In this document: one piece after another, positions 3,686-57,781 of the stretch | Layout: every line of letters begins with the position of its first letter | Position numbering within the stretch: the stretch's first letter is position 1 | Assembly: GCA_014058105.1 (NCBI GenBank) | Contig: JACGCM010001245.1 | Location: 1,860,001-1,924,000, forward strand | Length of the DNA stretch: 64,000 nt | Source: Kingdonia uniflora | Taxonomy: Eukaryota > Streptophyta > Magnoliopsida > Ranunculales > Circaeasteraceae | Direction: 5' to 3' | The notes under the pieces: generated by a model | What the model was told of the DNA's origin: nothing | Databases searched by the model: none | Seen by the model: the letters and a program-made list of their open reading frames with translations, nothing else | Position numbers and translations under genes: made by a program

Positions 3686-5162
3686 CTACAATGGAATCTT
3701 TTCTACTGTTGGGATGTCAACTACGCTTTCCTCTGTAAAAGGAGGTCGATCAGCCATAAATTCTCGAGATCGAGCATTCATAACAATCCTGCGCCGCTCT
3801 ATCAATTCAGTAGGTCGAGGGCCTAAATCCATTTCCCTGGAGCCCATACAATTTCCTTGATCTAAATCATCTCTGCAAATACATCCCCTGTCTGACAAAC
3901 TTTTGAACAAGGTATCTCTTTCTAACTCAAGCCTTTTTACCTCCTCTATAAAATAGGCGATCATCGCCCCTAACAAGTCTGAGGGTGCTACATGAGGTAT
4001 AACTGCCATAGAAAAGTTTGCTCTCGCTCGATGAAGGCGATCTTCCAACCTCGTATACCATTCTTTTTGCCATACCATTTCACTATCTACTCAAGCTATG
4101 AATGCAATGTTCTTTTCTAATTTCTTGTCAGCTTTAGCCGATTCGGCCTGATTAATCACCCTCAAATCTACCACCTGAGGTCAAAGTTCCTCAATCTCCC
4201 CATTTAAATCTTCCTCAGCTAGAATTTTTTGTAACAATTCATTTTCATCGGTATCAAAATCTCCTTCCCTCTAATAACCTGCTCTAACCCCTATTCCTTG
4301 GAAAGAGTAATATTTAGTTTCCTTTTGTACTCCCTTAACCGCACAATTCCTTTCTGCATATAACCTTGAGTTCGGGCTATATAGCCCTCCAACTCTCTTA
4401 TTAAAGCTGACAGACTGACTACATCCCCATGAATAAGGAAAACCTTGGCATCATTTTTATTCTTCCTCGAGCGCTCTCAAGCCTCGGCGTTCCTGGCACG
4501 CGAATTGGCATGCACCAATTAGATCTTCAGTTGTGCCACCCTCTCATTCAACTCATCGCACTTCTATTGTACCGTCCAAAACTCCATATCTTTAGCAGGT
4601 AAGGCAATAGACAACTGTTCAACTGCAACTTCAGAAGCCAATAAGTTATCTCGAGCATTCTTCAGCTCGCTATCTTTATCAAACATTTTCTTCTTCAATT
4701 GTTCCAGATCATTTCTAGTATTCACTAGATCAGCTTGAATTCACTCCTGATTGTTTATTTTATAGATAAATTTACCCTTCAAGCCATCCACAGAGCAATT
4801 TAACACATCCTCCAATCTTTTTAATGCCGGTATACGGTATCGAGCCATGTATGCATCCCTACTCTTTGCTATCAGTGCGTCATTTTGACTTTTGAGCTTC
4901 GCTACGTGTTCTTTCATCTCCGCGAGCTCCAGTTGTCCCTTGATAATTTCAACATCCATCCCTTCTCTATCTGTATTGGCATTTGCATATTTTGAGCTTG
5001 GTCGACAGTAGTTTGCTTTGCCTTAACAAATTTGAAGTATACTTTTACATGCTGATCTTCTCTATCTGCATTTGCCTCTCTCATCCTGTAAAACTCTTCT
5101 ACAAATTCTTGGTCACATTGGCGTACCTTGCTGTCGCTCGAGCGAACTAACTCTAATTCGAC
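3686..5162 (-). pseudogene. T1 opposite-strand gene, last exon: coiled coil and conserved C-terminal module
   Basis: After the AG at 5163-5164 the reading starts VELELVRSSDSKVRQ and is rich in Glu, Lys, Leu and Arg in heptad-like spacing, as expected of a coiled coil. Shared landmarks are LAEMKEHVAKLKS near 4900, HGDVVSLSALIRELEG near 4400 and, in the final 130 codons (4078-3686, all open), SDLLGAMIAYFIEEVKRLE followed by DRGCIC. T2, T5 and T6 carry recognisable versions of this C-terminal module (T2 and T5 YF.EEV..LE, T6 FFIEEIKFL). A frameshift near 4970 and stops near 4740, 4570, 4480 and 4270 break the exon. Confidence 0.72.
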
Positions 5163-5515
5163 CTATACATTAAAGATACAATATATCAAGTTTGATTCAG
5201 AACACTCCTTCAAAACATATATCTCATTTCTAACAAGATATCTATTCTTTTGACATATATAGTGTAAAACTACTTCTAAACTTAAGGTCGAAGTACAATC
5301 TCAGATGGATGTTCCAAAACATATACTATCAAGTCTAAGGTACACATTCTCTATATTTTAATTTGTCAATACTTTGGTATTTCCTGTGCACCATTTCAGT
5401 GCCATTGCCCCTAAATCGATAACAGATTTTTGGTCTGTCTCTACACTCTATTTATTACTTTGTAGCTCTATACTAATGAAGCATACAAGTCAAATATTTC
5501 TTGCCCTATTCTAAC

Positions 5516-5616
5516 CCCAGCTCTGCTTGTGAAGACAATAGGGACGCTAAGGCGCCTCTCTCCTTAGCGTGCTCAGACTCTAAATCTTTTATTCTGAGGC
5601 GCATGTCCTTAAGTTC
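5516..5616 (-). pseudogene. T1 opposite-strand gene, conserved 101-bp internal exon
   Basis: The segment starts after CTATAG and ends before GTTAGAAT. It encodes ELKDMRLRIKDLESEHAKER and continues as coiled coil without a stop. An exon with the same borders is found in T5 (38528-38639), in T6 (81 bp, 52537-52617) and, shortened, in T2 (11107-11158). A short exon kept in place between diverged introns is good evidence that the antisense transcript was spliced. Confidence 0.72.
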
Positions 5617-6757
5617 CTATAGAAAGGTTTACAAAAGCAACTTAGCCTTTAAAATTCTATCAAACAAGCAATATTTAATCAGTTTACAAACATTCCTGAA
5701 TATTCATAGAATCACAAAATCATCATCCCCTTGGTTGTCTCGTACCGTTTGGGGAGAGACACCATCCAGCCCGTCAACAACTCTAACAGCAACATCTTCT
5801 ACCTTATCGTCTTCCACCTCCTTGACGCAGATGTCAGCCCTAATGGCATCCACCTTATCTTCAGAATACCCCTTCGATATAAGGTGGTGTTAGAGTCTAT
5901 CCCGCTCAGTGACCACCTCCTCCAAATTTACTCTCGCCTCCGCGGTTAGATTGTTGATCTCCACCAATTGTGAAGCCTTCAGGGACTCCAACCGCTACCT
6001 TCTTCTCATGCTCGACTCTTTCTTTCTTCAACTCAACTTTCTACTCCTCGACCCCGAGGCATATCCCATTCATCAGATGAGTAGCCTACAAAATTAATAA
6101 AATCGACCTTATTATTAGCTCGAGTCTCAATACAAAAATTTATCACATATTCAAAGTATATGAACCTACCATTTTGGTTATCTTCACTTCTCCGTGGAGA
6201 GCTACCAGCCTAGCCCTTTCCTCCACATCTCTCAGCTCGTCTTCTACAACAAGTCGATCTGCAACGACCTTCACCCCTAACATTTTAGAAGGTTCAACCA
6301 TTCTCTTTTTCACCTTTTCTAGGACCTCACCACTTCCCGTGGTTCCAGAGGTCGAATGACGTTTCAACATTTTCTTCTTGGGAAACATTTGAGCAAGCTT
6401 GCTCGACGTAGTAGACTCCGGTAACCCCGTGTAGTCCACTCCATGGGACTTGGGAAAGTTCACTCGCCTTTCCCCATCATTTCCCATCTTCTTGCTACCA
6501 TTAGCGCCCGTCATTAGCCTCGCCGATTGAGACTTGTAAACTCTTTTGGATCGTCTATTAGCACGTTTCTGCCTGCTAATGCCAAGTTCTTCCAACACAG
6601 CCTCGAGCTCTGTTCCATCCTGAGCAATTGCATCTAACAATGAATCTTTCCTCGTTACCTAAGATTTAGGACCACTTATTTACAACATATTATCATCAGC
6701 AGAACAATATACAATTTCAACATATCAATCTTATAAATTATACATTGTTATACTTAC

Positions 6758-7499
6758 TTTATTTTATAGCTATAAATAGAAGTTCCATGGGTTCTTCTTC
6801 ATCTCTTTGAAGGCAATCACCTTTCACCCATATCATATTATCATTCCAAGGCTGTCCATCTGAGTTCAAATAAAAAAAATGAGGCTAAGTCAAGCTCGCA
6901 AAAAAATATGCCCCTCCTCTTGCAGAAAAGTGTTTTGCCCCAGAAAACTATAAAACATCCTCAGGAGATATCTTCCTCTCAATTTCATTTACCTCTCACC
7001 AATTATTCAAAAATTCACAAACACTTATCACCTCCCATATGTTATCATTCAACTAAACAGGACATGCCTCAATGATGTTCATTATCCCTTTCGCCAAATT
7101 GCTAAGGGGAAGACTCAAGGTAGCACAAAAAACCCTCTGCTAGGTCCCCCTAGACGTTCCCATCGAAGTACTCTAGAGAGATCGATTCGTCTATACCGTA
7201 TCTCTTTTCTCCTTCTCCAAATGAGCCAGCAGATAAAAATATTCCTCTCCCATTGCTACAGTACAACCCCTAAATTGTATACCGGCGTGTTCTACACAAC
7301 TACCCCATCTACCCCCTGAAGAAGCCTTAGCTTTACAAAACTCTTTGAATATATCAGAGCGAGGAGGAAAGGTCACCAATCTTCCAGGGAAATCTAGAAA
7401 TTGATTAACTCCTACTTCTTCCACACTTTCAGATATTACGATTTTGGACTCTGCCGATAGACCAGAGGTCGACGCTTCATTAGCAGGTGAACTCTCCAT
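6758..7499 (-). pseudogene. T1 opposite-strand gene, globular exon resembling the putative gypsy-type transposase domain
   Basis: The exon begins MESSPANEASTSG at 7499 and continues NQFLDFPGRL, FKEFCKAK, GCTVAMGEEYFYLLA, then LPLSNLAKGIMNIIEACP, a WEVISVCE helix and WNDNMIWVKGDCLQRDEEEP. It ends at a GTAAGTATA donor at 6757, identical in T6. The pattern PL..L...V...G..P.QL..N.W is reminiscent of the plant 'transposase (putative) gypsy type' family; that link is a by-eye judgement. Stops near 7190, 7140 and 7050 and a likely deletion near 7110 mark decay. Confidence 0.68.
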
Positions 7500-8745: not shown

Positions 8746-9440
8746 TGCTTCAGTTCGTTCTACTTCAGTGATGTTTCACTCTGATGCAAAGCAAATATTG
8801 GAAACAACGAATATCCTCCCTCCCATGAGTTTGGTCGAAGTCTAGTTGAACTTTAAATGGAAACTATAGAAGATAAGAAATTCGTGCTTAAACTAACTCT
8901 TCGAACTGAAGGTTTTCTTAGAATAAAGGAATGATGGAAGTACATATGTATTCTTCCATTCTTCACCTTCTTCCTTCATAACCATCGCCACCTCTCCTAT
9001 AGCCACCACCTTTACAGAGTTGGTAGAGATGAAGAGGACCCAACCTTATAATCTATTCTAACACAAGACATTACTGCAACTGCCTCACAGTTACGCCTAT
9101 CACTACATCTGTCTCCTTAACCTTGTCCCCCGTAAGATTGCGAAGACAAACCTAACATTGCTTGCCTGTTATGAAAATGTAATAAATCCTCCACATACAG
9201 TAAAAATCCTCCTCAGCTTTAGCCACTTCATCTTATGATATTTCTTGATATGTCGGAGGAACAGGAATGGGAGTAGGCATCTCCAAGAACTGATCCCTAA
9301 AATATTTCATTCTCTACCTCTACATTTCAGTATCAATTTTTTCTTCAAGAACCATTCTCTGAGTCTTCACCATCATCAAAACTTTAAGAAAATTTTGCAA
9401 TAAAGCAAACGTACTTTACCAAAAACCTCGGTACATGCAC

Positions 9441-9450
9441 TATTTATATA
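9441..9450 (-). promoter_or_regulatory. TATA box of the T1 opposite-strand gene
   Basis: On the minus strand the sequence reads TATATAAATAG, 68 bp before the first ATG of the opposite-strand gene and about 260 bp inside the 3' LTR. T5 has TATATAAATAG at 34045 and T6 has TATAAATAG at 56980 in the same relative place, while the sequence between is poorly conserved. This suggests a core promoter separate from the LTR. Confidence 0.68.
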
Positions 9451-9713: not shown

Positions 9714-10187
9714 TGTAGAGGCTACCCCTCGACCTTACCCAAATCGAGTTGTTTCCAAGTTTGAAGTACCTCCATGTCAGACTCACGTATTCTCCATATG
9801 ACTTTAACAACCAACATTGCCACATACTCTATGAACTTGTGAAGAATGTGGGTTGAGTTCAAACAAAAAAAATTGAACAAGTTAAAGACACCTGTCCCTC
9901 ACGAAGTAAGCAGTTACTCAGTAAACTGCCACTAACCAAATTGTTCAGAGAACGTTCTTCAGCAAGATAAAGAGATGCGGAGAAGGCCTATATAAAGAAG
10001 AAGTTCCAGAAAAGACAGGAACCAGGAAAATACAAGAGAAATCACCAAGAAAACTATATTTTCTAGATTATCAAAAAATCTAAAACTTCTTATTCACAAA
10101 ATTCAAGTATTTCTAAGTCAAGAGATTACTTGTAATAAGATATCAGCCTCAAGCAATAAAAGTTACTATTACAAAAATCTTCCAATA
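9714..10187 (+). repeat. T1 3' LTR, truncated
   Basis: The LTR starts TGTAGAGGCTACCCCTCGACC directly after the polypurine tract and is alignable to the T3 5' LTR (19151-19767) as far as the ATTACAAAAA segment. A promoter-like TATATAAA lies at 9989-9996. The last 100-150 bp, including the expected CTACA end, are missing and T2 coding sequence follows. The cut is near 10187, give or take 8 bp. Confidence 0.85.
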
Positions 10188-12920
10188 GAAGAGTAGCATT
10201 GCCAAAGGCCAATGTAGTAGATTTTGCGGATGTTCTAAAATCTACTTCGTCGTGCAAGCTAGCTCAAACATTTATGAAGAAGAAGAATCTGAAGCGTGGC
10301 TCGGCCTCTAAAACCACGGGGAGTGGTGAGGTCGAGGTAGAGGTGAAAAAGAGAAGGGCATACCCTCCATCTTAATGTTTCAGGGCAAAAGTCACGGAAT
10401 CTTGACCTGACGAGGAAGACAAGATGAGAGCTGTGGAGGATAGGACTAGGCTTGCAGCTCACAAGGGTGTGGAGGAGATGAGAAAAGTGGTAAGTTTGAT
10501 GATTTGTATGTTTGCTGAATTTGTATTGTGATTCGAGCTAAAAATGTGGTCGATTTATTTTTATAGGCTGCTCATTTGATGAAGGGGATCTGCCTCGGGA
10601 TGGAGGAGGAGAAAGCCTAGCTCGAGATTAGTAAGGCAGAACTCAAGAAGAAGGTAGCGTGATTAAAGTCTAATTTGGTTTAGGAGGGGAAGCGACTGGA
10701 TTCTGTGAAGGCTACGCAAGAGTTACAAATTAGCGAGGTAACAGAAGAAGCATAATATCTGGATGAGGTGGTAGTCCAGCATGATAGACTTGGGCACCAC
10801 CTCCTCAAAAAAGGGTACTCCAAAGATAAGGTGAATAACATTATGGGGGGTCCCTACGTTGAAGAGGAGGAGGATGAAGATGATGGGGCTGGAATTGTTA
10901 GAGGGTTGAATGGTATACATCCCCAGACCGAGCGAGAGAACCAAGGGGATGACAACGTGAATCCAGTGAATGAGAATGGGAAGGTAGAGTAAAGATTGTT
11001 AACTTTTTGGTTGTGTTATTATGAGAGTTTTGAGAACTGTAACTGTATGGATTATTGTAGAATAAATATATATAGGCTAAGTGATGTTTGTAAACCTTGT
11101 TTGTAGGAACTTAAGGATATATGCCACAGAATAAAAGAATTAGATAGTGGAGCTACAGGTTAGAGAAGAGTGAAAAATATTTGACTTGTATGCTGCACTA
11201 TTTTAGAGATACAAAGTAAAAATTAGAGTATAGAGATAGGCCAAAAACGTGCTAATAGTTTAGGGACACTAGTACTCAACTGTATATAGAAAATATCAAA
11301 GTGTTGAAAAAGTTAGAACATAGAGAATGTGTACCTTGAAATTAAAAGTACATATTATTGTCATCGAGTTGGGATCATACTTCGACCATAAGTTTAGAAG
11401 CAGTTTCACACAGTAGATGCCAAAAAATATAAATTTGTTAAAAATAAGGGTCCTGTATCATGTTTGAATCTATCGGTTGAATGTTCTTGAATCGAACTTG
11501 ATTTATTGTATCTGCGATATAGGTCAAACTGGAGTCAACTAGCATGAGCAATCAAAAGATGCTCCAGTATAACCAAGAGTTTGTATCGAAATCTAATAGG
11601 ATGAGAGATGCAAATGAAGATAGGGAGGATCAACACGTAAATGTACATTTTAAGTTTTTCAAGGCAACACAAGCTGTTGATGACCTTACTCGGAAGATCG
11701 AGGGGAAAGATGTCGAAATTAATAAGGGGCAAAGAGAGTTTGCGGAGGCAAAGAAAGAGATAGCGAAGCTCAAAAGCCGGAATAATGCCTTGATGGCAAA
11801 GAGTTAGGAGACAGACATGGCTCGATACCGTATTCAGTCATTGGAAATGACTGAGAAAGAGTTACACCATTTTGTGGCCAGTCTGAAGGACCAAATAATT
11901 AGCTAAATGAACGAACAAGAACAGACTCGAGCTGATTTAGTGAGTTCTAAAAGCAAACTGGAGCGATTGAAGAGAAAAATGATTATAAAAGATAGTGAGC
12001 TGAGGAAAGCTTGAGATAACTTATCTAACTCCAAAATTGCAGTTGAGCAGTTGACTGCAGCTTTACCTGCTAAAGATATAGAGTTCTAGTTGGTGCAAAA
12101 ACATTGTGATAAGTTAAATGAGAGGGTGTCAGAATTAAAGGCCGATTTACCTCTAGCCAATTCACGTGTAAAAAGTGCTGATAGGCTAACCATTGTTCAA
12201 GGAGATGTGGTTAGCCTATCAGCTTAAATTAGGGAGCTAGAGGGAGATGTAGCCCATGTACAAAAATGAAATGAGCGGTTAAGGGAGTGCCGAAGTAAGT
12301 TGGATGTTGCTTATGTCAGGGAATAAGAGTTAGAGCTGGAGATTAGGGGTAAGGATCTCTTGATAAGGAAAAAAGATGAATTATTAAAGAAATCTCCTAC
12401 CAAAAAAGGTGTAGATAAAGAACTTGAGGAACTTCGTGCTCAGGTGGAATAATTAAGGACGATAAACTAGGCTCAGTCAGGTAAAGCGGACGAGAAGGCG
12501 CGGGAACATATCAATCTTATGTCCTGCGCCAATAGTCTAATAGAATGGCATAAAGCATGATATAAGAAGTTGCAAGAGCATTATCAAAAAGTAAGAGTGA
12601 ATTTTTCCAGGCTAGTTATGCCTGAGGTGTCGCACTCACAAATCCTAGCGGCTGTTATAACCTATTTTATGGAGGAAGTGAGAAGGCTTGAGTTAGAGAG
12701 GGATGCCTTACGCGACTATTTTTCGGATAGAGGATGTATGACATAGATTGAGGAAACTGTATGAATGCCATAGAAATGGAGTTAGCATCTCGACCTACTG
12801 AATTGGTAAAGCAAGACAGGATTATGGTAGCTGCTCGAGCTCGAGATTTTATAGTTGAACGTCTTTTTATTTTAGGGAAAAGCCTAGATGACCTCCTATC
12901 AGTAGAGAAGAATCCTTTGT
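10188..12920 (+). pseudogene. T2 opposite-strand spliced gene, 3' part, degenerate
   Basis: Exons inferred by comparison with T1 and T5 are 10188-10489 (basic linker, with KTTGSGEVEVEVKKRR), 10567-10983 (acidic and coiled coil, with HDRLGHHLLKKGYSKDKV near 10780-10830), 11107-11158 (shortened internal exon) and 11523 to about 12920 (long coiled coil). Introns 10490-10566, 10984-11106 and 11159-11522 have GT and AG ends. The last exon contains VKLEST at its start, DDLTRKIEGKDVEINKGQ, QGDVVSLS near 12200-12225 and the C-terminal YFMEEVRRLELERDAL near 12660-12710. The N-terminal exons are absent, lost at the T1 junction. Stops near 10374, 10618, 11805 and 12012 disable it. Confidence 0.72.
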
Positions 12921-12929
12921 AGTAGTTGT

Positions 12930-13340
12930 ATATGCAACTTATAAAAGTATCTGTCGCAGACATATTGAGAGATGAAAGCTAGTTTTACCTTTGCTTTATC
13001 TTATGTCTGGTAGAGTTCTTCGATTGAAAACTAGTATTACCTTCATTTTAATCACAGAGTATGTATAAAGTTTGATTGAAAGCTAGTTTTATCTTTACTT
13101 TAATCGGTATATTTTTCGCAGCCATATTGAGAGATAAAAGCTAATTTTACCTTTGCTTTATCTTATGTCTAGTAGAGTTCTTTGATTGAAAACTAGTATT
13201 CCCTTCGTTTTAATCGCAAAGTATGTATAGAGTTTGATTGAAAGTTACTATTACCTTTGATTTAATCTATGTATTGTCTACATAAGTAGAGTGTAATGTA
13301 GTAAAAAACTTAGAAGTTTTAATTCAATGGAATAGAATGA
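12930..13340. repeat. T2 tandem repeat tract, about 160-bp period
   Basis: About two monomers recur with the landmark GAAAGCTAGTTTTACCTTTG near 12973 and a diverged copy near 13133. They contain the same half-units (CTAGTATTACCTTC, CTAGTTTTATC) as the T1 and T5 arrays, in the orientation expected for a minus-strand element. Confidence 0.7.
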
Positions 13341-17181: not shown

Positions 17182-17189
17182 TGTCTAAC

Positions 17190-27500: not shown

Positions 27501-27504
27501 GGGA

Positions 27505-27860: not shown

Positions 27861-27884
27861 CTGCTTGTGGAGGTCGTTTCGTCG

Positions 27885-28395: not shown

Positions 28396-28401
28396 ATCAA
28401 T

Positions 28402-34054: not shown

Positions 34055-34105
34055 GTTCCTGTAGCAAATCTTTGAAACAATTCCTTCTTGCGTAATTTTT
34101 CTGAG

Positions 34106-43141: not shown

Positions 43142-43730
43142 TGTAGAGACTTATCCCTCATGCTATGGACACTCGACCTCATCTATACCTCGAGCTCCAG
43201 AAGACTCGATCTTATCCAGTACCAGACTCACATATAAACAAGCACGTTAACAGTTTCAAATCGACCACGAACTCAAGCAGAATGTGGATCGCCCACAGTA
43301 GATGTAAACAAAACAAGTCAACATATACCCGTCTCCCACGAGCTAGCAGTTACACACTCAACTGCCCATGACTCCCACTTTCAGAAGAACGTGTTCAAGC
43401 ATTATGTCAAGCTGAGAGCAATGTCTATAAATGGGCAGAGCTCCTAAGGAAAAGAGGTGGTCGGCAGATTATTTTATACATACAATTATCTGATCTCTAG
43501 CTATTTTTTCTTAGATTAACTCTTGTAATCAGATTCTCTCACTCTCTCCAGCAATAATACTACTTTTACAAAATCCTCCACTCGAGGTCGTGGTTTTTAC
43601 TTATTTACAGGTTTTCCATGCTAAATCCCCTGTGTCAAGTATTATCACTTATTTAATTCTTGGCATTGTAGTTCTTGGTGTAAGGATCGATTTCAAGCTA
43701 GTTCGAGCTTTACGAAATCTGGTCCCTACA
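43142..43730 (+). repeat. T6 5' LTR (589 bp)
   Basis: It begins TGTAGAGACTTATCCCTC and ends GGTCCCTACA, giving TGTAG...CTACA inverted ends. A TATAAATG at 43426-43433 is a possible promoter element. The AGCAATAATACTACTTTTAC and GAGGTCGTGGTTTTTACTTA blocks are shared with the LTRs of T3 and T5. Confidence 0.92.
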
Positions 43731-45340: not shown

Positions 45341-45345
45341 TATCG

Positions 45346-46180
45346 ATGATGTATTGCGAATATCACAAGATTAAGCACCACAGCACTGGCAATTGCTATG
45401 GTTTGAAAAATCTCCTGGATATCATTTTTAAGGAAGGGAGCATGCTCGAATACATCATCGATCTTCCCAGCTATAAAGATGGGAGCTATCTGAAACAAGA
45501 TGATATGGCTCAAGCAACAGAACAAGCAGAGGAGAAGCATTTATATCATCTCTACTGCAGCAATATGTTCGAGATCAATCAGGTCTCAAATTCCAACAGA
45601 GTCAAGTGGAGGAAGTTGGGCAAGTGCTGTGACCTTGCCTTCCAAGACAAGGAAGCCAAGCTCCTCCAAGAGTCAAGCAGTCGTCGAAAGGGAATCTTCA
45701 TCGAAGACTGCTACACAGGAAAAGTGAAGTATCATCATCATGCCGCACTATTAATTATGCTCAAAATGAGAAACTTCGTAATGCACACCATGATGGTGGA
45801 CACAGGAAGTGGGGTTGAGATCCTTTTCCAGAGTACGATTGACCAGATGGGACTCTCAGATCAGGTCGTTTAAAGTGAGACTGACATCAGTGGATTTAAT
45901 GGGTCCAAAGAAGAACGTGTTGGGAAGATCACTATCCCGATCACAGCAGGGCCTACCACTATCGATGTTATTTTTTACGTCATCAATGCCAAATCAAGGT
46001 ATTTGGGGAAACTAGGACGCTGTTGGCTACAAAATATGGAGGCCATCCCGTCCACGTTTTACCAAACACTCCGTTTCAAGCATAACAACGGTATTTATGA
46101 AATCAAAGGAAGTCAGAAACTCTCCCGAGCTTGCAAGAATATAGTCTCACCAGTTCTCGACCTTTCAAAATAGATTGCTG
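45346..46180 (+). pseudogene. T6 zinc-finger-like segment and aspartic protease
   Basis: The open frame 45346-45873 starts with a C-x2-H-x4-H-x4-C segment at 45355-45396 (CEYHKIKHHSTGNC), which replaces the retroviral CCHC knuckle, then KEGSMLEYIIDLPSYKDGSY. The protease follows with MMVDTGSGVEILFQSTID; the catalytic Asp-Thr-Gly-Ser lies at 45799-45810 and is intact. After a stop at 45871 the same frame continues ISGFNGSKEERVGKITIP, YVINAKSRYLGKLGRCWL and GIYEIKGSQKLSRACKN to about 46170. It would cleave the polyprotein. Confidence 0.85.
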
Positions 46181-46269
46181 CATACCAATCACAGAAGGCT
46201 GATCACCTCGATGGTCAGTCTTCTCCAGCCGAGCCCGTGGAATACGTTTAGGTCGATGGAGTTAACTGA

Positions 46270-47215
46270 GGTACATATATATTGGTACAAAATTAATTCA
46301 AACAGAGAAAGAAGCTCTTATTTCTTTCCTCCAATCCAGCAAAGACGTTTTCGCATGGAACTTCCAAGAAATGCCAGGCGTGGACCCCTCAAAGTCTTGC
46401 CACATCTTAAACATCCGCGAAGGCACCGCAACAGTTAAGCAGAAGCAACGCAGGTTATCTCCAAGACTTAGAGATGAGGTGAACAAGGAGATTGACAAAC
46501 TTATCGAGGTCGGTTTCATTCGATAAGCCAAGTACCCAGACTGAATTTCTAATATCGTTGCTGTTCCAAAGAAGAATGGGAAGGTTCGGGTCTGTGTAGA
46601 TTTTACAGATTTAAACATACACACGGCAAAGGATAGCTTCCCTCTTCCGATCATTCATCAGATCCTTGACTCTACAGCAGGTCATGAACTCTTGTCCATG
46701 ATAGATGCCACTTTGGGGTACAATCAGATTCCACTCTTGGAAGCAGATCAAGAAAAGACTATGTTTATTACAAAAAGAGGTCTCTACTGTTACAAGGTCA
46801 TGCTAATCGGCCTTAAGAATGCTGGAGCCACTTACCAAAGGCTGGTCACAAGTACGTTCAAAGAACACTTGGGAGAAACAGTCAAAGTCTATATTGTCGA
46901 CATGCTTTGCAAGAGCCTAAAGAAAGAAGATCGCATTTCTTACCTCTCTACAATATTCAGTATAATATGATCCTACAGAATGAAGCTTAATCCCAAAAAA
47001 TGCCAATTCGGCATTCACTCAGGCAAGTTCTTGGGTCATCTTATCAGCAAGAAAGGGATAGAAGCAAATCCAGATCAAATTTGAGCTCTTCTGGACATGC
47101 CTTCACCCTAAACAAAGAAGGATGTAAAAAAGCTCGCAGAAAAGATTGCAGCAATCAACAGATTCGTATCAAAATCCTCGGACCGATGCAGATGGTTAAT
47201 TATGCTACTCAGAGG
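46270..47215 (+). pseudogene. T6 reverse transcriptase, catalytic loop mutated
   Basis: The pre-polymerase segment (EALISFLQSSKDVFAWNFQE) leads to PRLRDEVNKEIDKLIEVGFI, NIVAVPKKNGKVRVCVDF and DSFPLPIIHQILDSTAGHEL. From 46692 the frame is open: MIDATLGYNQIPLLEAD, KTMFITKRGLYCYKVM and GLKNAGATYQRLVTSTFKEH. The loop at 46890-46907 reads YIVDML, so the first aspartate of YIDD is lost. LNPKKCQFGIHSGKFLGHLI and KLAEKIAAINRFVSKSSDRC follow. Stops at 46525, 46541, 46969 and 47083. Confidence 0.88.
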
Positions 47216-47806
47216 TTCTACTCAGCGAGGCAAAGGTTCAAAAAATAAAGATATAAACTGGACATCAGAATGCGATGCAGCTTTTCTGGAACTCAAAACT
47301 TACCTAGGGAGGGTTCCAATTATGAGCACTCTGATAGGCAATGAGGAGTTGATTATTTACCTCGCAGTTACAAATACATCTCTCAGCTCAGTTCTTATTT
47401 GGCTCGAAGGAAAAATTGAGAAACCGATCTTCTTCATCAGTAAGACACTTACTCCAGCGGAAACGAGGTACTCTAAAATTGAAAGATTATTTTTAACTCT
47501 CGTTTACACCGCACAAAAATTCAAACACTATTTTCAAGTACATTCTGTCAAAGTCATGACGAACTACCCACTTTGGGAAGTATTGTCTAAGAAAGAGAAA
47601 TCCAGAAGAGTACAACAGTGGTACGTCAGTTTGGGGGAGCACGAAATTAAATTCGAGCATGGAATTTCCGAAAAGGGTCAAGCAGTCGCTAATTTTCTAG
47701 CAGACTTTCCAGTTTCTGATCTTGACTGGGAAGAACATGATCCAGATCTCGCCAAAGATGCAGCAGATGAGATTCCACCCTCCAAATATTTTTATGATAG
47801 AGCATC
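47216..47806 (+). pseudogene. T6 RNase H
   Basis: An open frame from 47202 includes SECDAAFLELKTYLGRVPIM, YLAVTNTSLSSVLIWLEGKI, FFISKTLTPAETRYSKIERL, FLTLVYTAQKFKHYFQVHSV and KGQAVANFLADFPVSDLDWE. It then runs on in the wrong frame through the next domain to 48038. It degrades the RNA strand of the RNA/DNA hybrid. The spacing and motifs match T1 and T3, and this is the longest uninterrupted stretch of pol in the window. A one-base frame change near 47806 separates it from the second RNase H. Confidence 0.85.
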
Positions 47807-48420
47807 ATGGATATCTCAAAAGGGTGGAGGCTCCTCACTGATGGTTCAGCGGGACCCGCAGGGTTGGGAATTGGGATCGTTCTCATTATACCTTCCCACG
47901 ACAGAATCGAAAAATCCATCCGTCTCGACTTTGAAGCCTCGAACAATGTTACAGAATACGAGGCACTCATTCACGGTCTGGACATGGCTCTCGAACTCGG
48001 AATCACTGAAATCTCAGCCTACACAGACTCTCTTCTAATCGTTTATCACTACTTAGAACATTGCAAGAAGAACATAATCATGGTCGATTATGCAGCTCTG
48101 GTTACAGAAAAGCTAAACAAATTTCACAAAGCTACGCTCGAATACCTCCCTCGTGGAGAGAATCTCCACGCTGACTCCTTGGCTTACTTAGCCGGAGTAA
48201 TGGGTATAGAATCAAGACACCTTCAAATTGAAGTTATTTCTAACCCTAGTATTAATCGTACTACAGTATATGTGATTAACACTGGGGCGATGAGATGGCG
48301 GAAGATGATTGGAGGAAACCTTTTGTTACTTATCTCGGTCAGGATAACTCATGCAACGGGCCACTACCAGATGATCCACAGTAGCGCAGACACATCATCG
48401 AGAATTCAAGACGATTCATA
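47807..48420 (+). pseudogene. T6 second RNase H (archaeal-type), catalytic residues intact
   Basis: This 204-codon open frame holds the four expected acidic positions: LLTDGSAGPAGLGIGIVL (Asp), FEASNNVTEYEALIHGLDMA (Glu), AYTDSLLIVYHY (Asp) and LPRGENLHADSLAYLAG (Asp). The linker to integrase (ESRHLQIEVISNPSINRTTV) follows, then a frame change near 48290. An extra RNase H of this kind after the first is a mark of Tat-lineage elements. It is better preserved than the neighbouring RT. Confidence 0.86.
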
Positions 48421-48439
48421 GTCCAACCAAAGGGTGATC

Positions 48440-49563
48440 TCTACAAACGCTTAGTCACCGGTCCATACCTCAAGTGCCTCTCTAAGGAACTTGCCGGCAA
48501 CATGCTTCGAGATCTACATGAAGGAATCTGTGGATCCCATACCGCAGGACGAGCTCTTGCTAACAGAGCTATTACCCAAGGAGTGTTCTGGCCAGGGATG
48601 CCGAAGCAAGCTGAAGAATACTCAAGGAAATGCGATGAATGTCAGCGTCATGGAAATCAAATTCGAGTCCATGCCCTCGAACTCCATGCCAGTAAGGTAT
48701 ACTGGTCATTCAAACGATGGGCACTCGATCTAGTTGGTGAATTCCCCAATACTCTGGGTAATAGGAAATTTCTCCTTGTTGCCACGGATTACTTCACTAA
48801 ATGGGTCGAAGCAATTCCTCTATGCAGAACTCGAGAAGAAGAGGTTATTTCTTTCATTTGGCAGCTTATCATCACAAGATTTGGTTGTCCACGTTTGATC
48901 CGTATGGATAACGGTCCTCAATTCGTTGGAGCAAAGGTCGTAGTATTTCTCAACAAACACAACATAATCCATTCTCCATCAAACCCATACTACCCCACGG
49001 GAAATGGACAAGCAGAGATCACAAACTAGATCATCGTGGATGGTCTCAAAAAGTGCCTTATGTTACAAAAGAAGGGCAACTGGATACGTGAATTACCTCA
49101 CATCTTATGGGCTTATCAAACTACGCCCCAGAAGTCAACACAGTGCTCTCCTTTTCTGCTTGCCTATGGAACTGAAGCAGTAATCCCAACAAAGTACCAC
49201 CATCTTGTGAGAGACCACGAGCTCACAGACGAAGAAAATGAGTTCGAATTAGCTTGTAACCTCAATTGGATCGATGAGACATGAGATCGAGCTATCGCAA
49301 ATCTTGGTCGATATCATCAAACACTGGCAAATTCATACAAAAAACGAGTCCGCAATCGGGAGTTCGCTATCAATGACTGGGTCCTTCGAGAAATCCCAGA
49401 TAATAGAAAAGATCCACATGCTGGGAAACTAGCAGAAAATTGGGAAGGTCCTTTCATGGTCATAGGTTGAACTGGTCCGGGTTCATACTATCTCATGACG
49501 GAAGCTGGTGACAAAATTCCAAATCCATGGAATACAAGAAGATTGAAGTTATATCGACGCTAA
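48440..49563 (+). pseudogene. T6 integrase, best preserved domain, three stops
   Basis: The zinc-binding part is intact: LHEGICGSHTAGR, then RKCDECQRHG (HHCC). The catalytic residues are all present: Asp in RWALDLVGEFPN near 48716-48750, Asp in IRMDNGPQFVG near 48900-48930, Glu in GNGQAEITN near 49003-49026. The C-terminal region has ELPHILWAYQTTPQKSTQCS, HELTDEENEFELACNLNWID, AENWEGPFMVIG and NPWNTRRLKLYRR, ending TAA at 49561-49563. Only stops at 49027, 49282 and 49468 break it; each is one base from a sense codon. It would insert element DNA with 5-bp target duplication. Confidence 0.88.
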
Positions 49564-49689: not shown

Positions 49690-50745
49690 TCATCTCCATC
49701 TAAGGGTAAAGGCGCAGTTTATCCTAGCCCGATCCCTAAAGGCAAATCACATCCAACATTGGTAATGGCATAGATAATACTAGCCTAACTCTTGAGAATA
49801 CTCATACATCCAAAGGCGGGGGCCATAACGAGCCTCTCAGCCTAAAGATAACAAGCCTAAAGTACGAGTGAGGAAAAAACATGCTCACTACCGCTAGGCT
49901 CCATCCAACATTGGTAATGGCATAGATAATACTAGCCTAACTCCTGAGGATACTCATACATCAAAAGGCAGGGGCCATAACGAACCTCTTAGCCTGAAGA
50001 TAACAAACCTAAAGCACAAGTGAGGAAAAAACTTGCTCGCTGCCGCTAAGCTCCAACATCTAACATTAGTAATGGCATAGATAATATTAGCCTAACTCCT
50101 GAGGATACTCATACATCCAAAGGCAGGGGCCATAACGAACCTCTTAGCCTGAAGATAACAAGCTTAAAGTACGAGTAAGGAAAAAACTTGCTCGCTACCG
50201 CTAAGCTCTAACATTCAACATTGGTAATAGCATAGATAATACTAGCCTAACTCCTAAGGATACTCATACATCTAAATGCGGGGGCCATAACAAACCTCTT
50301 GGCTTGAAGATAACAAGCCTAAAGCATGAGTGAGGAAAAAACTTGCTCACTGCCGCTAAGCTCCAATATCCAATATCGTACCAAGGCATAGATAATACTA
50401 GCCGAACCCCTGAGGACTCAGAAACCTCTAGGGCTAGGGCCATAAAGAGCCTCAGCCTGCTGGATTAGGCCTAAAGCACGAGTGAGACGTTGCTCATTGC
50501 TGATAAGCCCAGCTCTCTAATATGGTATCAAGGCATAGATAGTACTATGCCGAACCCCTGAGGAAACACAGATCCGAGGCAGAGGCCATAAAGAACCTCT
50601 AAGCCTGCAGTGACTGCCTAAAGTACGAGCAAAGATATTACTAGCCCGCTACCGCTAAGCCTCCTTGAAGTCCAAGGCTTGAAGCACAGATAATACTTAC
50701 TTCTACACCCACAGACTTCTTTTAATTTAATGGGTTAAACCAAAG
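49690..50745. repeat. T6 tandem repeat array, about 155-bp monomers
   Basis: Six to seven monomers share GGTAATGGCATAGATAATAC, at about 49761, 49913, 50068, 50223 and, diverged, near 50376 and 50520 (spacings 150-155). Each also carries GGGGCCATAACGA.CCTCT and GAGTGAGGAAAAAAC.TGCTC. The monomer sequence is largely unlike that of T1 and T5, yet period and position are nearly the same. Confidence 0.88.
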
Positions 50746-50887: not shown

Positions 50888-52307
50888 CTATTTCTTTTTA
50901 ATTATGCTGGATTTCCTTGATGGGAGAGCACTCGACCTTCCTCCCACAATAGGAGTAGGTGAGACTACACTCGAGCTTCCCCCTATTTCAGTCTTGGATG
51001 CCTTATATTCTAGAGCTCGTTCAGCAACAATTTCTCTTCCTCGAGCTATTTGTTCAGCCGTCGTGGTCCCAATACCACGATCCATAACCCCAATTGGATC
51101 TATGCTCGGGATATCGAGTTTACATACACAAGTCCTTCCAGAGAAGTAATCTTGCATCAAATCTCACTCAACCTATAAGAATTTTATTTCCTCGATAAAA
51201 AATACAACCAATACGCTTAATTGTCGTTGATGCAAAGCTTCACCGTCACATTTTTCTTGTTCATGAACTACTAGTTCCTTAAAGTCTTGGTGAGTAACAA
51301 CAATACACTTGTTATCCTTCAAACGACGAGATTTTGATTCAGCCAGTTCAGCTACTAATTGATCAATACGTTCACTCATCTGCCTTGTAAGATCTATCGA
51401 TTTCTGTTGAGAGTTTGAGAGATCAATATGCATATTCTCCACTAACTCTTCTTTTCTATGAAGAAATTCCTTCATATCTCGACCCCCCTTACCAGAAGCA
51501 ATTTCACCATCCCTTTCATCCAATTCAAATTTAAGATCTTTCTAATACTTCATATCACGTACACGTAATGCCCGCTCCGATTCGGAAATTCGGGCACAGA
51601 GTTGATTAATTCTTTCATTCATCTCCTTATCATGTTGCACAACCCTCCTCACGTTTCCTCGAGCATGGGCCAGCTCGTCCACAAAAAAATTGTTATTGGC
51701 ATGAACCTCTGCTATATCAGCCCTGCTTTGAGCCTCTCTTCCTTTTAAACGACGTAAATTAGCCTTCAAACGATCTAACCTGGCAATCAAACTATCACAT
51801 ATTTGTGCAGAGTTAGGCAATTCTTAATCTTTTCCCATAATATTACTGCTCAATTTTTCAAAATCGGCCTCAGACACTGCCAAGTTAGTTCGTGCAGTAT
51901 CTAGGTCGATCACTCTCTTCAACAACTGCTTGCTCAGAGCACGAAGGTTATATTTCATATCAGGTATCTCTTCATTTAACGCTCTAATACGGTATTCAGT
52001 TAACTCAGCCTCGTGTTGAGAACCTGACGCCGCCTTTTCCTTCAACTCAGTAAGTTCGCTGGTAAGTTGGTTCAAAGCCAAATCCCTGCTCAAAATTATT
52101 GCAGTCTTATTCTCGACTTGTCTCTTAACTTCTTCAAGCTTTAAAGAAAGCTTCACATTATCATCCAATCGATCTTCATACTGAGAGATCAAAGCCTCAT
52201 ATTCTTCTGCTTACTCAACATAATATAAAAGAGTTTGTTCTTCTCTCTCTCTAGCAACGTCTAGCTCCTTCTGCATAACAGTTAGCAGAGACTCACAACA
52301 TTAGTAC
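50888..52307 (-). pseudogene. T6 opposite-strand gene, last exon (coiled coil and C-terminus)
   Basis: Three long open stretches in one frame (52192-51824, 51820-51542, 51523-51173), separated by single stops, are dominated by Glu, Lys, Leu, Arg and Ala in heptad-like spacing. They are followed by 51160-50888, which carries SIDPIGVMDRGIGTTTAEQI and a Ser/Lys-rich tail. Total length is about 470 residues with almost no Pro or Gly in the first 330, as expected of a long parallel coiled coil. Confidence 0.74.
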
Positions 52308-52536: not shown

Positions 52537-52617
52537 CTCTAATTCAGCAGAGGATTTTTTCTCCACTTCAAGCAGGCCCTCTAAGTCCACAACTCTGTAG
52601 CGCGAGCTTTATATCTC
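52537..52617 (-). pseudogene. T6 opposite-strand gene, 81-bp internal exon
   Basis: It is bounded by TTGTAG before and GTTAGATAATT after. It encodes DLEGLLEVEKKSSAELE at its end, matching the IKDLESEHAKERGALASLLS exon of T1 and IKDLESKLARERETSKALLS of T5. The donor GTTAGA is the same in all three. Confidence 0.7.
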
Positions 52618-53213
52618 CTACAATACAGAGTTTCATAAGCAAAATGTTGTTGGCATCAAACAACAGTAAAATATTATAAAGCTTGAGTTCATGTTTCACA
52701 ACCAATGTTACATTACACGATCATCCTACATGATCAATAGTTTCCTGATTATCGGCAGCGGTCTTTTCAGGAATATTCAGACCATCCTCCATTTCCTCAA
52801 CCTCCTATTCATCCATAGTTTCCTTTACCTCATAATTCCCTTCGCTAAATGCCATAATCTCTGCCTTTGTATACCTCAGCTGGTAGAGCTTCCCTGCAAG
52901 GTTGTTCAAAAATGTAGCAGACGCGGTAATCAATCGCTCCGCTTCAGCTACACTTTCAGCCCTAACTTCCTTCAGCTTTAGGGCACCAGCTTCCCTTTCT
53001 TTTTCCAGCTCTAACTGGAAAGCTTCCTTCTCCTGAGTCAGGTTCTCTTCAAACTGGTTTTTCTCTCCCTCGAGCTGGGTGATCCTCTTTTCCAGCTCAA
53101 TGGACCTATCCTGGAAACCAAGATGAACCCCCCTCAGAGCACGAGCAAATTACAAAAAGGAATAAGTCAGCTCGAGCAACAAAACAGCTCGACAAAACTA
53201 ACTATTTACTAAC

Positions 53214-53752
53214 CTTCATAAACTCATCATCCACAACAATAACCATCTTTTCTCGCGCTTTTGCTCGGCATTGATCCTCCAGGAGACCGGCCTTAACCTC
53301 AAAGCGCGGCTTCAAGTCCGCCCCCTCAGCGATCTTATCGCTTTTCTCTAGCACCACCTGCGACTTTGAGGGAAAAGTTACCTACCTCCTCTTACTGCTA
53401 TCGTCCACAGTGTCCGATGTAACAGAACGAGAAGTAGACCCCCTTTTTATGGCCTTCCTCTTCTCCAGGTTCTGTACAATAGTGCTAGAGACAGTGGCCA
53501 TGTCCACCGGCCCATCTGGCATTTCATTGAGCCGCGTGAGCTTCAAAGGTGTATTATGTTCAGGAGTTGACAATTTCTCTTCCATAGAGCCTGGAGTTTT
53601 CCCAGCCATTTTCCTCTTCGCTTGAGATCTCTTGACCTTGTCGTCCTTACTAGCTACCCTTTTGAACCTACTTATCTCTAAATCTTTAAGAATAGCTTCG
53701 AGCTCAGTGCCTTCCCTGGCAACGACATCTATAAAAAATTCCTTCCTCGAAA
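53214..53752 (-). pseudogene. T6 opposite-strand gene, basic linker exon
   Basis: The exon starts after AAAG at 53753 with SRKEFFIDVVAREGTELEAI, then LKDLEISRFKRVASKDDKVK and KRSQAKRKMAGK, a lysine/arginine-rich stretch that could be a nuclear localisation signal. It runs on through NLEKRKAIKRGSTSRSVTSD to MVIVVDDEFMK and the donor at 53213. T1 (GTELEAVLEELGISRQKRAN) and T5 (GTELKLVLEGLSLSRKKRVD) have the same beginning, showing shared ancestry of the exon. Confidence 0.72.
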
Positions 53753-53860
53753 CTTTGCAATTATTTCTTGCATAAAAAATTGGCAATGTAAGATACAAAT
53801 CAACTATAGAAATATAGTTAAACATACAAATAATAGTTCAATTTTTAATGGTATACTTAC

Positions 53861-54642
53861 CTTTTGTTATAGTTCTATTGTTAAGTTCTAAGGGTTCCTC
53901 ATCAGACCGCTGAAGACATTCACCAGAAACCCATAAAAGGTTGTCGTTTCATACTAGCCCTGCTGGAGACAGGTCGAAGAAGCATGTTCTTGAAGAACTA
54001 GAAGAGAGATATGTACCATCAGTTGCTGTGACATATTTCACAGCATAATACTCCAGAAAATCCTTGGCAGTAATCCTCCTCTCACTACCAGATGTAGCCC
54101 ATCTCTCATTAAGGGCTTCGCATGCAAGGGTAACTTTCCAAAAATTGCAATTCAATTGCGCCGGGCAGGCCCCAATCATATTCATAACATTCTTAGCCAA
54201 ATTGCTCAAAGGCAGCATCAACCCATTGTTGAACTGGGCTAAATAACGACAAAACCCATCAGTTCGACTATCCTTCACCATGCTTTGAACGTACTCCAAG
54301 GATACTTCGTCCCCTAAATGTCTCCACTTCTTTTCTTTAGACAAATCAGGCAGGAAATGCAGGTAATCCCCTTCTTGACTGACACTGCAAGTCCTAAAGA
54401 AATTACCCATATATCTGAAGGCGTGCCCCCAAATCCCATCTATACTACTTTTGGCCTTATAGAACTTCCTAAACCGACTAGAACCTGTTGGGTACTCCAC
54501 TCGAGAACCCTCCAGACGAGGCCATTTTACCAATTTAGCTACAGTATCCTCCTCATCCCCTACTCCAATGATGGGAGATAAATGCCTTACGAAGTCTACT
54601 TTATCAGCCTTTGCACAATCGGAAGTCGAAGCCATACTTATC
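53861..54642 (-). pseudogene. T6 opposite-strand gene, globular exon
   Basis: The reading starts MASTSDCAKADKVDFVRHLS at 54635 and stays open for 228 codons to a single TAG at 53949, after which the frame continues NDNLLWVSGECLQRSDEEPL to the donor GTAAGTATA at 53860. Internal landmarks are RLEGSRVEYPTGSSRFRKFY, GDYLHFLPDLSKEKKWRHLG, FNNGLMLPLSNLAKNVMNMI, GACPAQLNCNFWKVTLACEA and RITAKDFLEYYAVKYVTA. The pattern of hydrophobics around PL..L...V...G..PAQL..N.W resembles the plant 'transposase (putative) gypsy type' domain (PF04195); this needs a profile search. T1 and T5 have the same exon in more decayed form. Confidence 0.75.
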
Positions 54643-56972
54643 TACAGTAAATGGTCTACTTTATAAGACGCTGGTCCAACAAAACCTACAGATAGGTCAA
54701 GGTATATATATCAATTTTTATCTCTCACTACTAGATCATTTCTATAATCCAAAACTGTGACAAAACGATTTGTATCGCCCCACAGTCATCATTCCCATTA
54801 TTATTTTTATTTTATTTTTTGTGTTTGGGCAGGGACTACATCCTTATCCCGACACAATAAAGATTTTTATACAAAAACTCATGTAAACCCAAAGATAGAC
54901 TTACCTTCAGCACCCGAGTGAGAGTCTACAGCGTTAGTCTGCACCAGTTTGCTCAATTTCTGTAACTTCTTTATAACCTCCTCGATCTCAGCCTCCTCTA
55001 GTAGTTTACAATTGAGACTCCTAGTCACTTATTTCCTCTTATCCTTTCCTCCTTCAGCGGTAATGGAATCGTCAGTTGAGATCTCTCTCTCTCTAACCCT
55101 TCTCTTCTTTTTCAGGTTTTTTGTATTCAAAGAGGGAGGAGAGGGGGTACTTATGCACCTTTCCCCGACCGCTGGCGGCTTGGAGTTTTCCAATAAGTAA
55201 TCCTCAATTCCTGAACTGAGCCATCTGTAGGTCTGAACCTGTCAGAGGTGTTATACCGCTTTGGTGAAAATACCTTCCCATCATTACACCAAATATTATA
55301 CTTTAGCGTATCTCTCAGCCTCTTGGTCCCACTCTTTTCACAATACCCCAAACTCATGATTATGAATTTTCTACTTTAAAATTTCACGTACATTTATTTT
55401 CCCTACTTATACACCTTGACTTTAATGTCAATATTAGTTAGCAACACAAATTCAAAAATTCAGTTTCAACAACAATCCTTGTCATAGCCTATTTTCATGA
55501 ACAGAGTTTTCTTCAAATAAATTCGGGCAATTACATTTTAAAAATTCAAAAAATACAACAGTCAATCACTCGAATCCCCAAGATACTTGTATTTGAAGCA
55601 ATCGATGTGTCCAACAACACCACAAGCTTTCAGTAGCCCTGAAACGATATCCCTATCCTCATTGATGATCTCCTCCTTGGCCATCATCAGGATGAACTTT
55701 TTACGATCTTCAACAGACCGCCAACAGGTACGAATGGACTCAGACCAGTACACGCAGTTCATTTCCTCCCCCCTTTCTACATTAGTCTTAGCCTCATAGT
55801 TCACTCGGGTTTCAAGCAGAACCGCATCATAACCTTGCTGCCCAAAAATAGTATCCCTTATTTCATAAATCTTGAATACTAAACGCAAATCGTTCAACAC
55901 ACGTACTTCAACAGCCCTCTGAGAATGAGTTTTCACCATTTTTTATGAATAAACTTCTTAAAGAACAAGTCACACTTTTATACTGTTCAGTTAACAGGAC
56001 TAATTTTTCGATTGACTATACGCAACGTATTTCAGTTTCTATAACCCACTCTTCTCGGGTTCAAACTACTTACTATGATCCTTTCGTGCTTAATCGAGCT
56101 CTCTAAAGTTTATATTTCGAGCTTTATGTTTACATCTGATAAGCTCGATTCAATTACGAGGAAGGATAAGGTATGTTTTCCCACCAACTATTCACTCCCA
56201 TATTATGTACAGCTCGATGACATGTCAACTATTTATGCTTTTCGCTAGTAAGAAACAAACAAAAATATTCTTTTATTACGCTCAATTTTTATTTAACAAG
56301 TTGGTTATAGGCCTACCCTTACAGCGTTACTTTACAATTATAGAATCAAGTTTTTCGAAGCTCGATATTGCAAATACTTTCTCAACTCGAGGACAGGTCT
56401 CTAGTTCTTTTCTTATTGCCAAGATAATACTGATCTTCCAAAGAAACTTTAGCCACAACTCAAAAATTGCAAGCCTGCAACAGGTCAAACACCTTTTTTC
56501 CCTTCATTTCCCTGCATGAAGAATAAAAAGAAAAGACGATGGTACCGAAAGAAGCGATCCATCTTCCACTTCCACCATCGCCCTCTCTTCCTCCTTATCC
56601 CCACTAACCCAGAGTTCGTGAAGATTGAAGATGACTCCTACCTTAGAAATCAGAATGCTATTAGAGACCAAGGATTTTGCATCGCATACACCCCGACCGC
56701 TAAATCAGACGCTACATAATGCCCAGAAATATTTCAAACAACACTCCTTTAAAAAATAGCAAAGGGAGTCTCCCTACTCTGCTAACCACAAAACCATATT
56801 TGGAATCCCTCTATGATGAAAGAAAACTGGGTATGATACACTTGATTCCTCATCTTAATCATGATTTTGCAAAGGTACGCTTTCAAAAAATCTCACCCTA
56901 CAAAACAGACATGTTTGTTTTTCTCTGCAGCGAAGATGTGTTGTAGGTTATTCGGCGATCAAATCTGACCAC

Positions 56973-56980
56973 TATTTATA
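56973..56980 (-). promoter_or_regulatory. TATA box of the T6 opposite-strand gene
   Basis: The minus strand reads CGCTATAAATAGTGGTC, about 215 bp inside the 3' LTR. The position and the TATAAATAGTG core match T1 and T5. The frame upstream of it (57157-56972), although open, falls in the part that is non-coding in T1 and T5 and is therefore taken as promoter region. Confidence 0.66.
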
Positions 56981-57183
56981 GCGATACTGCATTTTATACC
57001 AGTTGTTTCCCAAAATTGTCATCCGCTCGGGAAAACCAATAGTCTGCCCATAACACTCACGCGTCATAATGAAAGCACAATCTTCAATACTGACGTTCCA
57101 TTTTTTAAAAACGTCACTTACATCATCATAAGGTCCAAGTTTTAGGGTTTTTCTCAACTAAAGCCACACGCGACTTCAGTTGC

Positions 57184-57194
57184 GAGGGCGCGAT
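57184..57194 (+). other. T6 polypurine tract
   Basis: GAGGGCGCGAT precedes the LTR start TGTAGAAAC. It differs from the GAGGGGGCGAT of T1 by a G to C change that interrupts the purine run. Confidence 0.78.
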
Positions 57195-57781
57195 TGTAGA
57201 AACTTATCCCTCGAGCTATGGACACTCGACCTCATCTATACCTCGAGCTCCAGAAGACTCAATCTTATCCAGTACCAGACTCAGGCATAAACAAACACGT
57301 TAATAGTTGCAAATCGACCACGAACTCAAGCAGAACGTGGATCGTCCACAACAGATGTAAACAGAATAAGTCAATATATACCTGTCTCTCACGAGCTGGC
57401 ACTTGCACACTCAACTTCCCATGACTCCCTCTTTTAGAAGAAAGTGTTCAAGCATGATGTCAAGCTGAGAACAGGGTCTATAAAAGGGCAGAGCTCCTAA
57501 GGAAAAGAGGTGTTCGACAGACAATTCAATACACACAATTATCTGATCTCTAGCAATTTTTTCTTAGATTAACTTTTGAAATTAGATTCTTTCACTTTCT
57601 CCAGCAATAATACTACTTTCACAAAATTCTCCACTCGAGGTCGTGGTTTTTACCTATTTACAGGTGTTCTACGCTAAATCCCCTGTGTCAAGTGTTATCT
57701 CTTATTTAATTCTTAGCATAGTAGTTCTTAGAGTAAAGATCAATTTCAAGCTAGTTCGAGCTTTACGAAATCTAGTCCCTA
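57195..57781 (+). repeat. T6 3' LTR (587 bp)
   Basis: It begins TGTAGAAACTTATCCCTCGAG and ends ATCTAGTCCCT followed directly by ATGGA, the right target copy. It aligns with 43142-43730 over its full length; counting by eye gives roughly 60-70 differences, mostly transitions. The last bases of the 5' LTR (ACA) are replaced by the target sequence. Confidence 0.9.

Follow-up and report, generated by a model that had tools for sequence, protein, structure and literature searches.

An apparently intron-bearing, TRP28-like antisense gene in Tat-type retrotransposons of Kingdonia uniflora

Retrotransposons copy themselves via RNA and so tend toward intron loss; how, then, could elements of this kind carry a gene split by several introns? 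That question is raised by a 64,000-nucleotide stretch of DNA from the plant Kingdonia uniflora (GenBank assembly GCA_014058105.1, contig JACGCM010001245.1, positions 1,860,001 to 1,924,000 of the forward strand; hereafter the window), which contains decayed Ty3/gypsy elements nested one in another. An earlier note, made from the letters alone, had claimed that four of these elements, T1, T2, T5 and T6, carry the same gene antisense to pol, between integrase and the 3′ long terminal repeat (LTR). Antisense homology matches of the T6 exons bear this out: one homologous gene, antisense to gag-pol, occupies the integrase-to-3′ LTR interval in all four elements, that of T2 being cut. We read it, with a probability of roughly 0.78, as a divergent, intron-bearing version of the TRP28-type antisense accessory gene of Retand-like Tat retrotransposons, and we hold its identity and architecture with good confidence.

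Structure of the antisense gene

When compared with the window, the T6 E4 translation gave antisense matches in T5 (E=1e-35) and T1 (5e-27), the E5 translation in T1 (1e-15), T2 (5e-4) and T5 (9e-4), and the first part of E8 in T5 (1e-5), T2 (5e-5) and T1 (1e-3). The position is that of Retand-type elements, as seen in T6 from both LTRs and the domains and in T5, T1 and T2 from homology. A second RNase H domain after the reverse transcriptase (RT)-RNase H is a hallmark of the Tat clade; in T6, the copy covered by this test, RVT_3 scored above the cut-off and RNase_H just below it at 47801–48418, beside RT_RNaseH at 47112–48035.

Exons E4 to E8 and their four introns are firm (Table 1). E4 encodes a TRP28-like globular segment, E5 a basic linker, E6 a coiled-coil and acidic segment, E7 a small segment, and E8 a long coiled coil with the C-terminus. 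The GT...AG borders that had been described at matching places were recovered at 26 of the 28 splice sites listed, which were chosen by hand from alignments and protein joins; the two exceptions are the T5 I4 donor (AT) and the T6 I5 acceptor (AA), and no I6 donor was identified in T1 or T2. Introns I4 to I6 measure 64–112 bases and I7 266–364. The T6 introns interrupt the protein at the same places as those of the other copies despite aligning with T5, T1 and T2 no better than fixed-end shuffles (z 0.1–1.8, nine comparisons), whereas the T1, T2 and T5 introns align with one another (z 2.0–24, seven comparisons against such shuffles); the claim that the protein survives while the introns diverge is thus right for T6 against the others and fails among T1, T2 and T5.

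Predicted Kingdonia proteins join these exons. Counting an exon as covered when at least 30% of it is matched, 121 of 126 T6-type proteins cover E4, all 126 cover E5, 116 cover E6, 45 cover E7 and 35 cover E8; in the same 126 K. uniflora proteins the E4/E5 join (TITKG/[IV].CK) occurs 43 times and the E5/E6 join 29 times, other members of the set being joined in different ways. T5-type proteins likewise match the T5 exons.

The 5′ exons are less secure and are partly supported. E0 (MVKTQR) is present in T5 and T1, E1 (GYDA) in T6, T5 and T1, and the basic segment E2/E3 in T5 and T6; that segment was not found in T1, and the T5–T1 DNA match skips T5 35619–36399. The earlier description of about eight exons with the same contents in the same order consequently stands for E4–E8 and in part upstream of them. 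The E2/E3 reading frame shifts by −1 within both T6 (55365–54906, minus strand) and T5 (35953–36383), perhaps at a small unrecognised intron.

The gene ends first given hold for T1 (ATG 9373; stop 3688–3686), T2 (stop 12920–12922, the 5′ part being missing before ~10184), T5 (ATG 34106; stop 40311–40313) and the stop of T6 (50890–50888); the T6 start at 56946 is doubtful. Across the whole window and both strands, TATA[AT]A[AT] followed 20–75 bases on by ATGGTGAA occurs only in T1, T5 and T6, and the sole such module in T6 gives an ATG at 55939. A 33-base block around the TATA box has one difference between T5 and T1. The MVKT start lies in E0, ~1 kb upstream of E1 with its GYDA segment, in T5 (34106–34291 and 35339–35619) and T1, and start and GYDA are contiguous in T6 (55570–55939); T6 also has an extra TATA-like box at ~56981, 1 kb upstream, without an MVKT start.

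All copies are broken. In the segments tested, in-frame stops number 24 in 934 codons of T5, 15 in 905 of T1 and 16 in 668 of T2; T6 has in-frame stops in E4, E6, E7 and E8, and a small deletion near the E5 acceptor.

Selection on the antisense frame

The ratio of nonsynonymous to synonymous divergence (dN/dS, or w) was estimated by the NG86 method on frame-blind DNA alignments of the T1, T2 and T5 pairs, with bootstrap ranges; the comparison took in E4 up to the point where T5 shifts frame (37164), E5 beyond its opening 85 bases, E6 beyond its opening 40, and E7 and E8, in codons free of gaps and stops. The ratio was 0.28 for T5/T1 (0.22–0.36; 905 codons), 0.35 for T5/T2 (0.26–0.46; 668 codons) and 0.37 for T1/T2 (0.30–0.49; 648 codons), against 0.88–1.22 in shifted antisense frames and 0.91–0.96 in introns. 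The antisense protein was therefore clearly under purifying selection in the past, as the earlier note had suspected. Because the copies are now dead, with stops throughout, this constraint would be older than their insertion. The values are comparable with those of pol in the same copies (0.22–0.54), and where estimable the per-exon ratios of E4, E6, E7 and E8 are 0.21–0.36, E6 of T5/T2 being saturated.

Differences by codon position tell the same frame apart. Third positions differ at 0.46 in T5/T1, against 0.32 and 0.30 at the other two (p 3e-14), at 0.51 in T5/T2 (0.41, 0.34; p 6e-9) and at 0.39 in T1/T2 (0.31, 0.24; p 2e-8); T6 E4 has a third-position excess against both T5 (p 2e-7) and T1 (p 2e-8). 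The three positions of E0 differ at 0.23, 0.23 and 0.40 between T5 and T1, values given without a significance test. Indels in multiples of three are clearly enriched in the exons of T5/T2 (16 of 22, against 2 of 19 in introns).

We considered whether the signal could come from coding on the opposite, sense strand, where dN/dS is 0.40–1.23, and rejected this: the best sense frame is a reflection of the antisense one, with a larger ratio in all three pairs (0.40, 0.51 and 0.45). Chance or misalignment is unlikely, given that shifted frames and introns served as controls within that one frame-blind alignment. Pair for pair, synonymous divergence (dS) is roughly double in the antisense gene what it is in pol (T5/T1: 1.25, or 0.92 in E4 alone, against 0.53 in pol), an excess that noisy alignment of the coiled coil may exaggerate.

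Relatives, proposed role and rival explanations

The profile search proposed for the T6 exon translations did return a match, PF04195 on E4 (E=0.062), below the curated cut-off. Of 47 proteins, 16 matched PF04195 at E up to 0.1 (best E 0.0074), more than matched any other Pfam family; the domain consensus gave E 0.0076 and protein P0135 0.006. We name the E4 domain TRP28-like rather than a certified member of TRP28 (Transposase_28), its score being below the cut-off. Similar Kingdonia-type proteins number at least 211 at E up to 0.01, and among the best 120 of 211 matches T6 E4 shares up to 86% identity with K. uniflora proteins over aligned parts. The annotated Kingdonia proteins P0134, P0135 and P0144 combine family sequence with a domain of another kind (ferredoxin-thioredoxin reductase, PPR or P-type ATPase), through either mis-annotation or exonised elements.

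Antisense genes of this general kind are known, and the earlier remark that some antisense open reading frames (ORFs) had been reported in the Tat lineage was correct and understated the case. Vicient 2025 (PMC11963269) describes antisense ORFs in all of its Retand clusters, with TRP28 in 97%, and treats antisense TRP28 ORFs as characteristic of Retand elements; Transposase_28 is given for 23% of Retand elements elsewhere (PMC6317226). The Kingdonia gene resembles these ORFs in its antisense orientation, its place between pol and the 3′ LTR and its TRP28-like signal; further likenesses are the SMC-like matches of some of those ORFs and the tandem repeats in the same region of about half of those elements (PMC11963269). 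It differs in being seemingly split by at least four introns over ~5–6 kb and in its TRP28 score below the cut-off, and the pol-to-3′ LTR stretch of T6, a decayed copy, is ~7.7–8.2 kb against the 2.9–6.6 kb reported for Retand (PMC11963269). Maize Grande gene23 and aORF-3R of RIRE2, Retand and PvRetro13 are likewise antisense accessory genes (PMC7264820), the gene23 product being nuclear and its transcription starting from a promoter upstream of the gene; the comparison is through this one review, in which the word 'intron' does not occur and which calls for antisense and spliced transcripts to be sought, and gene23 may itself contain introns. Introns are generally lacking in plant LTR elements; exceptions include Ogre and EVADE (PMC12786077), whose introns belong to the sense RNA and function in producing subgenomic RNAs (PMC12786077; for Ogre also PMC6317226), whereas those of the Kingdonia gene are antisense. 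In open-access literature, with few full texts, no title or abstract opening described introns in such antisense genes. Within this limited literature the multi-intron architecture looks new, the kind of antisense gene itself being known.

Among retroviruses, HBZ of human T-cell leukaemia virus (HTLV)-type viruses is an antisense gene near the 3′ LTR, with spliced RNA and a product that is a nuclear regulator. The likeness of such genes to the one in Kingdonia lies in position near the 3′ LTR and in the proposed way of working, and no sequence relation is implied; HTLV antisense genes are also named in PMC11963269.

The explanation we favour is that a promoter of its own near the 3′ LTR would drive the antisense gene toward pol, and that the resulting mRNA would be spliced. 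The introns could outlast transposition: the RNA that is packaged and reverse-transcribed would be the opposite strand, on which the splice signals do not read in the sense direction, and the introns would not be removed from the copied RNA because, judging from the anatomy, genomic RNA runs the opposite way. The protein would combine the globular TRP28-like domain, the basic linker and the long coiled coil; it would probably enter the nucleus, oligomerise and act in trans on element expression or integration. We propose nuclear action and regulation in trans on the analogy of gene23 and retroviral antisense genes, and the role of this coiled-coil accessory protein as a nuclear regulator is accordingly put forward as a tentative suggestion. 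The motif K[KR].[KR], resembling a nuclear localisation signal, occurs in 105 of 126 T6-type and 13 of 24 T5-type proteins, counts made with no background control.

A structural or replication helper is a serious rival to the regulator, though we hold it slightly less likely: the coiled coil would build or tether complexes in particle assembly, nuclear import of complementary DNA or integration targeting. The AlphaFold model of P0020 predicts with confidence a long helix across the end of E5 and E6 (~residues 391–510), and Table 1 of PMC11963269 gives SMC-like matches in 8 rows (by its text, 63 clusters); neither fold nor motif spoke for an interaction with Gag or integrase, no test of binding having been made. 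A role for the antisense transcript as RNA, in silencing or anti-silencing, with the protein incidental, would agree with the double-stranded-RNA-based regulation raised as a possibility in PMC7264820 and with the interference of antisense RNA with Ty1 described in a review. The constraint tracks the codons of a single frame, a pattern not expected of an RNA role, and dN/dS opposes RNA as the only role; we give this explanation very little weight.

The exons might instead be several separate antisense ORFs, each translated from a separate RNA that is unspliced or has a different start; several antisense ORFs per element have been reported in other plants. The clusters of PMC11963269 contain 104 antisense ORFs by its count, and the word 'intron' is absent from its text; moreover, T5 and T1 each have more than one start-like module, E4 opens with ATG in T6, T5 and T1, and many predicted proteins begin at E4. 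Donor and acceptor pairs nevertheless stand at the same protein places where the introns no longer align, with the intron sizes given above, and the protein models join the exons, which leaves separate ORFs improbable in our judgement. Least probable of all is that a host gene was captured, or became nested, by chance and that selection worked on it in the host and not in the element. Introns would be expected had a genomic gene been taken up in antisense; against it stand the same position in four elements, the ranking of the T1/T2/T5 pairs by dS just as pol dS ranks them, the at least 211 similar proteins, and the statement in PMC11963269 that TRP28 similarity was not found outside transposable elements.

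Several results weigh against an intron-bearing, TRP28-type gene. The best PF04195 scores, 16.9 and 17.2 bits, fall short of the curated 26.2 bits; none of the seven proteins of one set and none of the T5 and T1 pieces matched PF04195, and no homologue outside Kingdonia appeared among the protein matches listed, which in one search were the best 120 of 211. Two AlphaFold models have mean predicted local distance difference test (pLDDT) scores of 55.1 and 55.7, poor outside the coiled coil and a helical stretch at ~residues 170–205, and the short basic motif is a weak argument for nuclear import. E5 is weakly constrained (w 0.45–0.83); shifted frames of pol gave 0.63–1.05, which marks the shifted-frame controls as noisy; and the enrichment of multiple-of-three indels in exons is weak or absent in T5/T1 (9 of 19, against 4 of 13 in introns) and T1/T2 (5 of 16, against 1 of 13). 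T1/T2 identity is 67–78% in introns and 68–72% in exons. The protein models were all predicted in a single annotation and differ in which exons they include, and the splicing and function of the gene are deduced from sequence.

For the intron-bearing TRP28-type gene, the selection on the antisense frame indicates that the protein mattered to the element, and its recognition makes sense of a large group of 'hypothetical proteins' in the gene set of at least one plant. We would venture, more speculatively, that the Retand antisense ORFs across flowering plants may largely be exons of one ancestral intron-bearing gene captured in antisense, its introns kept for the element's whole history since the replicated RNA is the opposite strand. 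If so, the gene would be the plant equivalent of the spliced antisense genes of retroviruses. A gene that retains several introns by its opposite-strand position would be a clean natural example of escape from the rule of intron loss, and Retand antisense ORFs are worth re-reading as possible exons.

Host elements and feature coordinates

T6 appears to be nested in T5 (33230–59138), because the T5 LTR pairing, judged from identity, spans it; much of the T5 gag-pol seems to have been deleted internally, to judge from self-matches. T1 and T2 are partial elements. As in Retand-type elements, where they are not obligatory, tandem repeats with periods of ~147–162 lie between pol and the antisense-gene end in all four copies (T1 3177–3652, T2 12954–13272, T5 40512–41141, and T6 as in Table 1). 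They lie where sense and antisense transcription would converge.

Table 1. Positions in the window of the host-element parts and of the predicted exons and TATA boxes of the antisense gene
Element	Feature	Positions	Strand	Basis or remark
T6	5′ LTR	43142–43728	+	89.9% identity with 57195–57781 over 587 bases
T6	3′ LTR	57195–57781	+	Pairs with 43142–43728
T6	gag-pol remnants (gag, RT, RNase H, second RNase H-like, integrase)	44642–49026	+	Pfam
T6	Tandem repeats, periods 155 and 147	49749–50629		Between integrase and antisense-gene end
T6	E1 (MVKT start, GYDA)	55570–55939	-	TATA ~55982 then ATGGTGAA; covered by 23/126 Kingdonia proteins; 3′ border approximate
T6	E2/E3, basic segment	54906–55365	-	E2 covered by 7/126, E3 by 12/126 proteins; borders and frame uncertain
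T6	E4, TRP28-like	53861–54635	-	PF04195 E=0.062, below cut-off; donor GTAAGT
T6	E5, TELE basic linker	53214–53766	-	Homology, splice sites; E4/E5 join in Kingdonia proteins
T6	E6, coiled coil and acidic	52730–53149	-	E5/E6 join in Kingdonia proteins; own acceptor broken
T6	E7, small	52537–52617	-	Splice sites, protein joins
T6	E8, long coiled coil and C-terminus with stop	50888–52270	-	Homology, splice sites, stop
T5	3′ LTR	33230–33810	-	90.2% identity with 58559–59138; element on minus strand
T5	5′ LTR	58559–59138	-	Pairing judged from identity with 33230–33810
T5	TATA box of antisense gene	34045–34055	+	TATA/start module
T5	E0 (MVKTQR...)	34106–34291	+	P0127 protein start matches; 3′ border approximate
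T5	E1 (GYDA)	35339–35619	+	Homology; borders approximate
T5	E4	36607–37352	+	Alignment, dN/dS
T5	E5	37435–37932	+	Alignment, splice sites
T5	E6	38008–38424	+	Alignment, splice sites
T5	E7	38528–38629	+	Alignment, splice sites
T5	E8 with stop	38931–40313	+	Alignment, splice sites
T1	TATA box of antisense gene	9440–9450	-	Precedes ATG 9373
T1	E4, frameshifted	6758–7499	-	Homology, splice sites
T1	E5	6170–6658	-	Splice sites
T1	E7	5516–5616	-	Splice sites; T1 E6 begins 6085, end not identified
T1	E8 with stop	3686–5162	-	Splice sites, stop
T2	E5, truncated	10184–10489	+	Alignment, splice sites
T2	E7	11107–11158	+	Splice sites; T2 E6 begins 10567, end not identified
T2	E8 with stop	11523–12922	+	Splice sites, stop

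Elsewhere in the window, positions 25949–28912 form a block of tandem arrays with periods of 18–93, 52, 75, 84, 105 and 496.

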